DNA from: Bacteroidaceae bacterium
GTDB taxonomy: Bacteria; Bacteroidota; Bacteroidia; Bacteroidales; Bacteroidaceae
DNA: 33,599 bases
Reading direction: 5' to 3'
NCBI GenBank assembly: GCA_017525235.1
Contig: JAFXTC010000034.1
Location: 1-33,599 of the forward strand
The notes under the pieces: model-generated
Told to the model about the DNA's origin: nothing
Database searches by the model: none
The model's input: the letters and a program-made list of their open reading frames with translations, nothing else
Translations under genes and position numbers: made by a program
Shown here: in pieces, positions 1,925-31,890 of the stretch
How positions within the stretch are numbered: position 1 is the stretch's first letter
Layout: each line of letters starts with the position of its first letter

Positions 1925-1956
1925 TTTGCATATTTAAAATAGAAATTATATCTTTG
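1925..1956 (+). promoter_or_regulatory. Promoter of the TIR-like/ATPase/DUF4435 unit
   Basis: TTTG at 1925-1928, a 20-bp spacer, then TATCTTTG at 1949-1956: a full match to the Bacteroidetes sigma-A promoter (TTTG-N19-21-TAnnTTTG). It predicts a start near 1963 and a leader of about 20 nt to the ATG at 1986. No operator-like dyad is obvious between it and the start codon. Confidence 0.75.
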
Positions 1957-1985
1957 CTTTAGGAAATGCATAATTTACATGTTTT

Positions 1986-2513
1986 ATGAATAACAATAAG
2001 ACGTATGTTGCTTTTGATACTGTAGGTGTAGCTGACCATGTGAATAGTAACCTTTCTTCTTTCCGTCAAATACGTGAATGGGAAAGACAAAATCCAGATA
2101 GGTTTCATTTTTTGAATATGGATGAAATAGAATTTTTGTCGGAACATGAGGATTTGGTTGACAGTACGCTGAAGAATCATTTTCTACATTTGATGGAAGC
2201 TGCTGATAATCTGTTAGTGCTTTCGAGTTCTCGGATGGATGTGGAAAGTCCGACGTTGAACTGGCAGATTAGCCGTGCCGTTAACCGTTTCCGTTTGCCC
2301 GTAATAGTGGCATATGTGGGACTTGAAAAGGTGGATGATAATACTATAAAAGAGCAATGGAACCATCTTCCAAATAAAATAAGAAAATATATAGGACGAG
2401 ACAGTGCAAATATGGTTCATATTCCTTTAACTAGAGATAAATTAGAGCGTGCCTTGGGTTACTTCTCCTCAAGAAAGGAATTATATTCATGGAATTCAAC
2501 CACAATCTTCTAA
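1986..2513 (+). CDS. TIR-like (MTH538/ThsB-type) domain protein, candidate defence component
   Basis: 175 aa, no signal peptide or membrane segment. The pattern fits the TIR-like MTH538/DUF1863 family that includes ThsB of Thoeris: first strand KTYVAFD (5-11), an EWERQNPDRFHF stretch (31-42) resembling the family's W-x-N-x-D-F block, strand LLVLSSSR (76-83), helix NWQISRAV (92-99) at the place of the family's NWEIEKA, then strand VIVAYVGL (106-113). Q94 occupies the position where TIR enzymes carry the catalytic Glu, so NADase activity is doubtful; it might sense, scaffold or make another nucleotide product. It is first in a three-gene unit; the ATPase start is 3 bp after its stop. The family call is by eye and of moderate certainty. 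Confidence 0.62.
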   Translation: MNNNKTYVAFDTVGVADHVNSNLSSFRQIREWERQNPDRFHFLNMDEIEFLSEHEDLVDSTLKNHFLHLMEAADNLLVLSSSRMDVESPTLNWQISRAVNRFRLPVIVAYVGLEKVDDNTIKEQWNHLPNKIRKYIGRDSANMVHIPLTRDKLERALGYFSSRKELYSWNSTTIF

Positions 2514-2516
2514 CGT

Positions 2517-3338
2517 ATGAGTATGAAACAGGTTGCCAATTATATTAAGAGCATAGAAATTGAGTCGCTCTGGAATGGGAAAAAACATGTCATATGGGAA
2601 TTAGACCCTGGTGTGAATATCTTGAGTGGCGTGAATGGTGTTGGAAAGAGCACCATCCTGAATAGGGTTATCATGCACTTGCTTAACATAGATAAGTTAG
2701 ACAGACAGGCAGATGGTGTAAAACTTACATACGACGTAGAAGGAGCACATTGTGTGGATTTTGATGTGATTCGTTCTTTTGACCGTCCTGTGCTAAGCGG
2801 TGATTTAATGAATAAAGTTACGGACACCCAGTTGCAAACCGAGTTGGATTTCCATCTCTATGTTTTGCAGCGTCGTTATTTGGATTTTCAAGTGAATCTC
2901 AGTAACCAAATGGTGGCACTTTTCACAGCTCAGGATCCCGATGCACAAGAGAAAGCTCAACTGTTGGCTCAAGAAAAAACTCATTTTCAGGATATGGTGG
3001 ATGGTCTCTTCCATGAGACAGGAAAAACCATTCAGCGCGACAAGAATGAGTTGTATTTTACATCTTTTGGCGAGTCCATATCGCCCTACAAACTCTCAAG
3101 CGGGGAGAAACAGATGCTGATTATTTTGCTTTCTGTGCTTGTTCAGAATAAACGTCATTATACTTTGTTTATGGATGAACCCGAGGTGAGCCTGCACGTT
3201 GAATGGCAGCAGCAGTTGATTTCATTAATTCGCGACCTGAATCCAAACGCACAGGTTATTCTTACTACTCATAGTCCGGCTGTCATTATGAACGGGTGGG
3301 CTGATTGTGTAACAGATGTCGAGGATATTGTATCTTAA
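2517..3338 (+). CDS. Compact ABC/SMC-like AAA ATPase, AriA-like candidate
   Basis: 273 aa soluble ATPase. Motifs in order: Walker A GVNGVGKST (38-46), ABC-type signature LSSGEKQ (193-199), Walker B LFMDEPE (217-223), and a switch His in TTHSP (250-254). This is the overcoming-lysogenization/AAA_21 layout with a short, partly helical insert (about 100-185) instead of a long coiled coil. Such ATPases are usually dimers that control a partner nuclease. It lies 3 bp after the TIR-like gene and 16 bp before the DUF4435 gene, so the three are almost certainly co-expressed. The ATPase plus DUF4435 pairing is the architecture of PARIS (AriA-AriB), though this protein is small for AriA. A start 6 bp later (second ATG at 2523) is equally possible. 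Confidence 0.85.
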   Translation: MSMKQVANYIKSIEIESLWNGKKHVIWELDPGVNILSGVNGVGKSTILNRVIMHLLNIDKLDRQADGVKLTYDVEGAHCVDFDVIRSFDRPVLSGDLMNKVTDTQLQTELDFHLYVLQRRYLDFQVNLSNQMVALFTAQDPDAQEKAQLLAQEKTHFQDMVDGLFHETGKTIQRDKNELYFTSFGESISPYKLSSGEKQMLIILLSVLVQNKRHYTLFMDEPEVSLHVEWQQQLISLIRDLNPNAQVILTTHSPAVIMNGWADCVTDVEDIVS

Positions 3339-3354
3339 TCCATAGAGTAATATA

Positions 3355-4362
3355 ATGGGAAAACGCTTGCAAGACAATGTCAATTCTCAGTATATTGCAT
3401 CTGCTAATAGACTGAGACCTAAGAATGCTCGTCAGAGAATTGTTGCGTACGTGGAAAGCTATGACGATGTGTTCTTTTGGCGTTCTGTCTTGCAGGATTT
3501 TGAGACGGAAAAGTTTTTTTTCGAGGTGATGCTTCCTAGTCGGACTACATTAGGGAAGGGGAAAAGAACGGTCCTGATGAATCGATTAGGCAAGGGATTG
3601 GGACAGTACATGATAGCTTGTGTTGATGCTGATTATGATTGGCTTCTGCAAGGATGTACGGAGGTTAGCAAATACATTTGTGACAACCCATACGTTATGC
3701 ATACCTATGTTTATGCCATTGAAAATTATCAATGCTATGCCTCTAGTCTTCACTCAACGTGTGTTATGAGTACGCTTAATGACCGTCCTTTAATAGATTT
3801 TGAAAAGTTCTTTACAGATTATAGCCTCATTATATGGCCTCTCTTTGTTTGGAATATATGGGCTTACCGATATGGCCGTTACAAGGAATTTTCCCTGAGC
3901 AATTTCTGCGACATAGTGTCGTTTCATGATATTAATCCTCGGAATGTGGAGCCGACTCTTGATAAGGTACGTAAACGTGTTAACAAGTGTATTGGTTGGT
4001 TACAACGGACTTTCCCTGAAGGCCACAAGACATATCCACAGGTTAAGATGGATTTGCAGCGAATGGGTATTGTCCCAGAGACTACCTATTTATATATGCA
4101 TGGTCATACTCTTTTTGAGAATGTGGTGATGACATTATTGACACCTGTCTGTAACATTTTGCGTAGGGAGCGAGAACGTGAGATTAATGAATTGGCTATT
4201 CATGAAACGCAAAAACAAAATGAACTTTCAAGCTACAGACATAGCCAGATGCCTGTGGATATTATGCTACGTAAAAATACTGGGTTCAAAAGTAGCCCAC
4301 AGTATCAGTTGCTTAAAGAAGATATAAAACGACTGATGGCTGAGGTAGGCTTAGAGAAGTAG
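3355..4362 (+). CDS. DUF4435 (TOPRIM-like) protein, AriB-like candidate nuclease
   Basis: 335 aa. The N-terminal third carries DUF4435 hallmarks: RIVAYVESYDDVFFW (28-42), with the TOPRIM-like acidic E34 and D37/D38; CVDADYDWL (89-97), equivalent to the TOPRIM DxD; and YAIENY (120-125), the family's IENY block. The remaining 200 residues are helical and end in a charged region (about 265-335). In PARIS the DUF4435 partner AriB is a TOPRIM nuclease released from the ATPase on infection; a similar role is inferred here from family and neighbourhood. The gene is third in the unit, and its last 58 bp overlap the 3' end of trkA on the other strand. No transmembrane segment is visible. Confidence 0.8.
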   Translation: MGKRLQDNVNSQYIASANRLRPKNARQRIVAYVESYDDVFFWRSVLQDFETEKFFFEVMLPSRTTLGKGKRTVLMNRLGKGLGQYMIACVDADYDWLLQGCTEVSKYICDNPYVMHTYVYAIENYQCYASSLHSTCVMSTLNDRPLIDFEKFFTDYSLIIWPLFVWNIWAYRYGRYKEFSLSNFCDIVSFHDINPRNVEPTLDKVRKRVNKCIGWLQRTFPEGHKTYPQVKMDLQRMGIVPETTYLYMHGHTLFENVVMTLLTPVCNILRREREREINELAIHETQKQNELSSYRHSQMPVDIMLRKNTGFKSSPQYQLLKEDIKRLMAEVGLEK

Positions 4363-5699
4363 CGGTCCATATTCTTAATCAAACCACTTTTACAGAATAG
4401 CACAACAATATCACCTGCCTGAATTTTTGTGTTTCCATAGATAGGCTGGCCAACACCATCACGTACCAAGCCTCCTAACGTTACTCCCGAAGGAAGACGC
4501 AAATCTTTGACTTCTGTTTTGGTAATTAGGCTTTCTTCATTGGCAAGAAATTCCGCAACATCAGCATTAGCGATGGTAAGTCGTTTTACATTGGTAACAT
4601 CAGTATCTAACATCATCTGATGAATATGGCTGGCGGCTATCATCTTCTTATTTATAATGGTACCGATATCCAATTTTTCGGCCATGGAAACATAGTCCAT
4701 ATTTTCCACCAGCGCCACGGTTTTCCTTACCCCCATGCGTTTTGCTGCTAGACATGCCAGAATGTTAGTCTCTGTTTCTGGTGTAAGCGCAGCAAAGGCT
4801 TGCATATCTTTTAGTCCTTCATCAAGTAAAAGGCTAGTATCTCTTCCATCACCTTGTATTATACGTATGTCGCTGTCATCAAGTATTTCATTCAGTTGCA
4901 TACAGCGTTCCTCATTTTGCTCAATGATTTTCAGCGTATAGAAGTCAGGCATTCCTTCGGCTACATGCACCGTAGTTCTTCCTCCTCCCATTATCATAAC
5001 GTTTCTGACATCGGTATAGTCTTCTTTCCCAACCACTTCACGGATATATTGGATGTGTTTCTTGGTAGTCATGAAATAGGCAATGTCGCCCAATTGTAGC
5101 ATATCATTACCTCCAGGAATAATAGTGTCGTCGCCACGTTTTACAGCTACCACGTGATAAGGTGTATCTTGGTTGCAGAGGTCTTTCAACTTAATGTTTA
5201 TAACATGTGCTGTTTCGCGAAGTTTGATGCCCAACATAACTAAAGCTCCGTCATGTACCTCCCAATATTGTCTGACCCATGAACGTTTCATGCCGTCTAG
5301 AATTTCTCGCGCGGCAAGGGCTTCAGGGTAAATGATAGAGTTAATGCCCATTTTCTGAAAGAGATCTTTGTAATGAGGCCGTGTATATTCTGCATTGTCT
5401 ACACGTGCCACAGTCTTGGCGGCTCCTAAAGCATGGGCTAGCATACAGCAAGTAATATTCCGTGTTTCTTCGGGTGTGACGGCAATGACGAGATCGGCCT
5501 TCGGTACACCAGCTTCTTTCAGACCACTGATGCTTGTTGGGGAAACGTTCAGTGTCATGAGATCATACTCACCTGTTTGGGTAAGACGGGCAGTCTTCTC
5601 TGGATTCTCGTCAATGAGGATAATATCCTGGTTTTCTCGGGAGAGTAATTCTGCCAGATGTGTTCCGACGGCGCCTGCGCCACATATTACTATCTTCAT
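4305..5699 (-). CDS. trkA: Trk potassium uptake protein TrkA (RCK/NAD-binding subunit)
   Basis: 464 aa peripheral membrane regulator of Trk/Ktr-type K+ uptake. It has two RCK halves: the first NAD-binding Rossmann motif is [11 protein letters not shown] (7-17) with acidic D31 at the end of the second strand; the second is [13 protein letters not shown] near 238-250. Each Rossmann part is followed by an RCK_C region (about 137-225 and 365-445). The start codon overlaps the dxs stop as ATGA (5696-5699), so it is translationally coupled behind dxs. The last 18 residues, from YFSKP on, are encoded entirely in the overlap with the convergent DUF4435 gene and look like an add-on to the usual TrkA end. 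A trkH gene, which I would expect next in Bacteroides-type loci, is absent here. Confidence 0.93.
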
Positions 5700-17726: not shown

Positions 17727-17759
17727 CAAATATACGAATTTTTGCAGAAAAGACGCAAA
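17727..17759 (-). promoter_or_regulatory. Promoter of the CotH gene
   Basis: On the minus strand TTTG (rc of 17756-17759), a 21-bp spacer, then TATATTTG (rc of 17727-17734): a full Bacteroidetes promoter. Transcription would begin near 17720, downstream of the in-frame ATG at 17758, which decides the start choice in favour of the GTG at 17677. Confidence 0.75.
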
Positions 17760-26676: not shown

Positions 26677-26707
26677 CAAAGTTATGGCTTTTTCACTTTA
26701 TGGCAAA
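26677..26707 (-). promoter_or_regulatory. dnaA promoter
   Basis: On the minus strand TTTG (rc of 26704-26707), 19-bp spacer, TAACTTTG (rc of 26677-26684): full match to the Bacteroidetes consensus. The predicted start near 26670 leaves a leader of about 36 nt before the dnaA ATG. Confidence 0.78.
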
Positions 26708-28622: not shown

Positions 28623-28653
28623 CAAAAGTACGAAAAATCCTCAACATACCAAA
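28623..28653 (-). promoter_or_regulatory. Promoter of the amidase-mlaD operon
   Basis: On the minus strand TTTG (rc of 28650-28653), 19-bp spacer, TACTTTTG (rc of 28623-28630): full Bacteroidetes promoter, with the ATG at 28604 only about 12 nt past the predicted start. It occupies the 74-bp gap after the TonB receptor gene. Confidence 0.75.
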
Positions 28654-31859: not shown

Positions 31860-31890
31860 CAAAGTTATATATAAATGAGCGAAATGCAAA
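31860..31890 (-). promoter_or_regulatory. asnA promoter
   Basis: On the minus strand TTTG (rc of 31887-31890), 19-bp spacer, TAACTTTG (rc of 31860-31867): full match, the same -7 box as dnaA. The leader to the ATG at 31819 is about 34 nt. The rest of the 250-bp gap up to 32069 is AT-rich and holds only the opposing promoter below. Confidence 0.78.

Follow-up and report, generated by a model that had tools for sequence, protein, structure and literature searches.

PARIS was first described in hotspots of phage satellites, and few genomes overall carry it. The available text of one survey (PMC9122126) puts that share at 5.2% of genomes, and gives a detection rule in which an AAA_15 or AAA_21 ATPase is accompanied by a DUF4435 protein, both above their Pfam cut-offs. 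In the PARIS of Escherichia coli B185, a cassette of such hotspots, adjacent genes encode an ATP-binding cassette (ABC) ATPase, AriA (464 residues in the solved protein), and a DUF4435 protein with TOPRIM acidic residues, AriB. The locus considered here lies in a stretch of 33,599 nucleotides from a Bacteroidaceae bacterium (assembly GCA_017525235.1, contig JAFXTC010000034.1, positions 1 to 33,599 of the forward strand; hereafter the window), the source assembly being 2.6 Mb in size and rated 73% complete. An initial annotation of the window had proposed three tightly packed genes, for a TIR-like protein, an ABC ATPase and a DUF4435 protein, as a candidate new defence system related to PARIS. 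Comparison with related genomes showed that the trio is a PARIS pair, ariAB, with a clade-specific TIR partner, rather than a new system in which a third gene is fixed.

Thoeris, with its TIR protein ThsB and its partner ThsA, is the other described system that bears on the locus. As far as the available text of a study of Staphylococcus aureus Thoeris goes (PMC12578639), the E81Q substitution at the putative catalytic Glu of ThsB2 disrupts immunity; mutating the corresponding residues of ThsB1, which binds a phage capsid protein, leaves immunity intact. The TIR protein of the window belongs to the ThsB sequence family and, like ThsB1, is a TIR protein in a probable defence operon. However, it has Gln at the position of the catalytic Glu, and its operon partners are AriA and AriB, whereas those of ThsB1 are ThsA and a catalytic ThsB2; no ThsA was found beside it (this search covered the locus only). 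The pair behind it resembles E. coli B185 PARIS in the adjacency of the ATPase and DUF4435 TOPRIM genes, in the ATPase motifs and TOPRIM acidic residues, and in an AriB model that matches by fold an AriB-sized chain of the solved complex. Unlike that cassette, it has an AriA of 273 residues, is a family-core chromosomal pair, and in one clade is joined by the TIR-like gene. No paper on a TIR-PARIS trio was found within the literature searched, and the claim that it is undescribed is only as wide as that search.

AriAB as a core pair of the family

Assignment of the second and third genes to PARIS follows from family models and solved structures. The ATPase scores 66.2 bits against AAA_21 (cut-off 27) and 63.8 bits against AAA_15 (cut-off 32.1), and the DUF4435 protein 156.3 bits against its Pfam family (E=1.5e-45, cut-off 27), which places both above the thresholds of the published rule. 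In PADLOC the ATPase matches the AriA model PDLC04164 (E=1.8e-59, model positions 3-251 of 253) and its partner the AriB model (3.8e-56), and the ATPase also finds the solved AriA 8ux9_B (E=2e-12). The Walker A, signature, Walker B and switch His motifs reported by the initial annotation are all present, and are kept among 79 AriAs of the genus and 14 diverse AriAs; the DUF4435 protein has TOPRIM-like acidic residues, as it reported, and E34, D91 and D93 are invariant in 16 aligned AriBs, of which the lowest identity is 20%. An AlphaFold2 model of AriB (mean predicted local distance difference test score, pLDDT, 86.8), searched against 350,542 chains of the Protein Data Bank, ranked 8ux9_A first (probability 1.00, E 1.8e-3) and 8v46_D second (0.95, E 0.054). 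Both are chains of AriA-AriB complex entries (306 and 305 residues) and are taken as AriB because of their length, AriA being the 464-residue chain there.

The small size of the ATPase, which had been put forward as the mark of a separate type, does not set the locus apart. PADLOC already holds an AriA model of 253 positions, and other members of the family and order have two-gene pairs with an AriA of comparable length; AriAB here is the small-AriA kind modelled in PADLOC (PDLC04164, PDLC04165), which it resembles in ATPase size and partner family, the difference being the TIR-like gene, which matches ThsB models instead. A still shorter AriA of 223 residues, with all ATPase motifs and the middle segment missing, adjoins an intact AriB in two loci (L183:7112-7783, minus strand, and L184:3781-4452). 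A broken AriA had been suspected in this clade from partial matches in four genomes (G324, G325, G412, G416); the two copies read, L183 of G416 and L184 of G325, proved to be these intact 223-residue ATPases. In a different arrangement, a divergent 623-residue superfamily 1 helicase-like protein (AAA_11/AAA_12) is encoded between a sugar isomerase gene and ariA (L186:6402-8273, genome G348). Open reading frames (ORFs) that agree with it in length and location are present in L079 (G303) and L080 (G350), and one of 633 residues in L174 (G402).

The initial annotation named a trio fixed as a core locus in all Bacteroidales, with no patchy distribution, as a finding that would speak against its proposal. 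This holds in part: the pair is not patchy but near-fixed in the family, though not in the order. AriB was detected in 128/139 congeners, including 18/18 of those of high quality (completeness of 90% or more, contamination of 5% or less), and AriA in 129/139; in the family as a whole AriB was present in 379/399 genomes, 200/207 of high quality, and 28/30 genera, and an evenly drawn sample of the order gave matches in 24/295 genomes. Of the 128 genomes having both genes, 124 have them side by side on the same strand. Of the four remaining cases, G426 becomes adjacent if an omitted smaller AriB piece is counted, AriA lies at the very start of a contig in G412 and G314, and G388 is unexplained. 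In a shared set of 61 genomes, AriB was found as often as trkA, the neighbouring gene, in 56 genomes each. Three genomes of one genus (G946, G972, G1080), each a single contig and 99% complete, lacked an AriB match at E <= 1e-10, so that absences are probably real in places.

Protein distances follow those of trkA: rho was 0.80 for AriB (n=63), 0.78 for AriA (n=60) and 0.71 for TIR (n=36), with 0/999 permutations in each case. These sets hold the sequences that were fetched and whose match covered >85% of the query (TIR 61, AriA 79, AriB 72 and trkA 65 of the 139 congeners). A mobile origin of the AriB and TIR genes was also considered, and searches of phages, plasmids and viral contigs gave no sign of mobility. 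AriB had no match in 50,697 phage records and matched 2/72,556 plasmid records, both non-mobilizable, the plasmid-record search showing AriB matches in Bacteroides and Phocaeicola; viral contigs yielded two distant AriB relatives of 29-30% identity. One 'plasmid' record of Bacteroides finegoldii, NZ_OY725943.1 (L358), carries ariAB together with meaB and a TonB receptor gene, and is therefore probably a mislabelled chromosomal contig. AriAB is a core, near-fixed pair of the family with mostly vertical inheritance. Its presence in a Bacteroides thetaiotaomicron strain is already known from the literature, and within the literature searched no statement of PARIS as a vertical core gene was found. 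Distant second copies of AriB (24-31% identity) are patchy, being seen in 7/139 congeners (G377, G353, G333, G411, G337, G368, G373).

The TIR-like gene and its history

The first gene was correctly read as TIR-like of the ThsB type. Its protein matches the PADLOC ThsB model PDLC00421 (E=5e-24), and a profile of 10 TIR sequences finds the solved ThsB 9uv0 (2e-13) as well as 3hyn and 8v6t; the single sequence gave no convincing relative among solved structures, and no usable match in Pfam or NCBIfam. Its predicted structure has a pLDDT of 83.9 and a predicted template modelling score of 0.86. Fusions of the TIR protein were suspected from frames of 313-993 residues; in the 993-residue case (G311), the extra frame is antisense to a glycoside hydrolase family 92 (GH92) gene (L155).

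From the alignment, Gln94 would be the residue equivalent to the ThsB catalytic Glu. Among 57 distinct TIR sequences, this column holds Gln in all 52 of the genus and Glu in the 5 others; it holds Glu in the solved 9uv0, 3hyn and 8v6t, and in 8/8 when all the TIR relatives from a distant family of the phylum are read. Within the family of the window, a second genus has Gln in 3/4 TIRs and Glu in 1, and the single TIR of a third genus has Glu. A peptide-pattern scan for TIR relatives, one pattern of which contains Gln and so is biased to the Gln type, was excluded from the Gln count and from claims of absence. With Gln at the catalytic position, the protein most likely makes no cyclic ADP-ribose signal, and is probably non-catalytic, perhaps a sensor or adaptor. 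The ThsB-like TIR genes of the distant family (L118-L125, L175-L182) come in 7/8 cases from genomes of one genus, and BLAST showed no AriAB-like neighbours at these loci.

The initial annotation supposed the TIR protein to be a fixed third component, which its distribution does not support. A TIR gene was found in 77/139 congeners and not in the other 62. In 58 of the 77 it immediately precedes ariA, and in 19 it lies elsewhere. In the family it occurs in 27/399 genomes and 3/30 genera, and the 4/4 loci read from the second genus have it as a solo gene. Outside the genus, 0/26 AriB loci, each covered by 3-16 kb of DNA, had a TIR-like neighbour, the profile used having found the TIR in 8/8 loci of the genus as a control. 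In the 19 genomes where it lies elsewhere (L155-L173), the TIR gene occupies a conserved second home: an M18 aminopeptidase gene adjoins its 3' side in 11/19 (e.g., L157:2896-5669), queD-/queE-like genes are near in 13/19, and a GH92 gene is near in 13/19, these gene families having been taken from one scanned locus. A Thoeris partner was also sought beside solo TIRs, and the two loci scanned (L157, L165) showed no ThsA-like match.

A trkA tree of 65 congeners, with weak support near its midpoint root, places 28 operon-type genomes within one group of 37 and none among the 28 genomes outside it; 9 solo-type genomes fall in a group of 11, and the remaining 17, all without TIR, lie apart. The simplest history is that a solo TIR gene moved in front of ariAB once. 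In the operon the TIR gene is a clade-specific addition to the pair.

Layout of the locus in the window

The features of the locus are collected in Table 1. The gaps of 3 bp (TIR-AriA) and 16 bp (AriA-AriB) are as first reported, all three genes lie on the same strand, and they would be co-transcribed.

Table 1. Positions in the window of the three genes, their motifs and the adjoining features
Feature	Position	Strand	Remark
Bacteroides-type promoter match	1925..1956	+	TTTG, 20-bp spacer, TAnnTTTG; 29 bp 5' of TIR start codon
ThsB-like TIR gene (gene 1)	1986..2513	+	175-residue ORF
Gln94 of TIR, codon	2265-2267	+	aligned with ThsB catalytic Glu
AriA-like ABC ATPase gene (gene 2), small type	2517..3338	+	273-residue ORF
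AriA Walker A	2628-2654	+	motif
AriA signature LSSGE	3093-3107	+	motif
AriA Walker B	3165-3179	+	motif
AriA switch His	3270-3272	+	motif
AriB-like DUF4435 TOPRIM nuclease gene (gene 3, predicted)	3355..4362	+	335-residue ORF
AriB E34	3454-3456	+	TOPRIM acidic residue
AriB D91	3625-3627	+	TOPRIM acidic residue
AriB D93	3631-3633	+	TOPRIM acidic residue
ariB/trkA 3'-end overlap	4305..4362	.	58 bp; genes convergent
trkA	4305-5699	minus	convergent to ariB

Upstream of the TIR gene is a perfect two-box match to the Bacteroides-type promoter consensus, which is taken here to be TTTG, 19-21 bp and TAnnTTTG. The window holds 5 such perfect matches against 0.61 expected, the other 4 being on the minus strand at 17727-17759, 26677-26707, 28623-28653 and 31860-31890. 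The upstream DNA was long enough in 54 relatives that have TIR before AriA; TAnnTTTG occurs in the 160 bp preceding the TIR gene in 51 of these (shuffled mean 5.2), and the full two-box match in 10 (shuffled mean 0.18). Because only 10/54 relatives have the full match, the single strong promoter described earlier is a putative one, seen as a perfect sequence match to the consensus.

The 3' end of ariB overlaps that of trkA. The two genes are convergent and <500 bp apart in 24/54 congeners in which both were located, and their convergence is also seen in another genus (L353). Where computable among 12 pairs, ratios of nonsynonymous to synonymous substitution rates (dN/dS) were 0.013-0.053 for TIR (6/12 pairs), 0.016-0.090 for AriA, 0.024-0.116 for AriB and 0.006-0.058 for trkA, many dS values being >1 (saturated) and the ratios therefore rough. 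Such purifying selection on the trio in relatives shows that the ORFs are not chance.

Working of the trio and what it means

The best explanation of the locus, which is held with slightly better than even confidence, is a PARIS-type guard with a small AriA, kept as a family-core, vertical chromosomal pair and having a clade-specific TIR-like protein at the head of its operon. If the pair works as PARIS does in E. coli, where an AriA hexamer holds AriB, oligomers of AriA would keep AriB inactive until infection or an internal trigger acts on AriA; AriB would then be released and would cut host tRNA, whereupon translation would stop. The TIR protein would most likely act by binding, as an adaptor or sensor altering what AriA perceives, much as ThsB1 does in S. 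aureus Thoeris. A bolder form of this proposal, in which the locus is a core-genome PARIS given an extra layer in one clade, with a dead TIR as dedicated third sensor subunit and the whole a domesticated immune module, is offered only tentatively.

Several results weigh against a guard of this kind with a TIR partner. The AriB fold match is moderate (TM-scores of 0.37-0.46 for the first two chains and 0.43-0.46 for the best, none at E <= 0.001), and the profile of 16 AriBs had no sequence-level match among solved structures. In a fold search with the TIR model, nucleotide N-glycosidases rank best and ThsB ranks 23 (E 0.033, probability 0.96), TIR and N-glycosidase folds being kin. Once shared ancestry is allowed for, the distances of TIR and AriA are not correlated (partial Mantel 0.11 in 27 operon-type genomes, 152/999 permutations as high), a null result that counts neither for nor against interaction. 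AriAB does not need the TIR, as 52/129 AriA genomes have none detected; the TIR may work apart, as 19 genomes and another genus have it at a place other than AriAB; and the Gln change, present in 3/4 solo TIRs of the second genus, is older than the operon and not tied to AriAB. The Gln in solo TIRs shifts the odds slightly towards a TIR that is functionally independent, an old solo gene now standing before ariAB in one clade and merely sharing its promoter, which is somewhat unlikely. The second home beside the M18 aminopeptidase gene fits such independence, as do 9 tree members of the operon clade without detected TIR, of which 8/9 keep AriA and AriB matches (G307 has neither). However, the TIR gene lies on the same strand just before ariA in 58 genomes, the gap (to the AriA match start) being <30 bp in 33/58, and this placement is kept even where the locus lies away from trkA; all 77/77 TIR genomes have AriA, though the base rate is 129/139.

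The initial annotation suggested Thoeris-style signalling joined to a PARIS-style nuclease trap, such that the TIR protein would sense infection and make cyclic ADP-ribose that opens the AriA-AriB complex. The ThsB-like sequence and the shared operon with an effector pair are in keeping with this, but Gln replaces the catalytic Glu in 52/52 distinct sequences of the genus, by alignment the equivalent of the E81Q change that disrupts immunity in the available account of ThsB2 (PMC12578639). Moreover, neither AriA nor AriB has a Pfam match to SIR2, SLOG/STALD or Macro, and AriB is present in 379 of the 399 family genomes as against 27 with TIR; such signalling is very improbable. A different question is whether the family-wide AriAB is chiefly cellular rather than anti-phage, serving for example in controlled tRNA cleavage under stress. 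The pair is present almost throughout the family, is inherited vertically and is under strong constraint, which sets it apart from the patchy distant copies and from PARIS overall at 5.2% of genomes in the available text of the survey (PMC9122126). Yet the PARIS family is named for tested defence members, G946, G972 and G1080 lack a match, so that the pair seems dispensable, and a core distribution is compatible with defence; a chiefly cellular role is unlikely.

In summary, the unexpected and most interesting result is that a PARIS lineage belongs to the core genome. With a near-universal, vertical PARIS in a major gut and rumen family, the long retention of a lethal guard, and any role that it has beyond defence against phages, can be studied in a genetically tractable commensal. 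Whether a non-catalytic TIR can inform an ATPase-nuclease guard is a question for which the TIR partner found in one clade provides a natural test.

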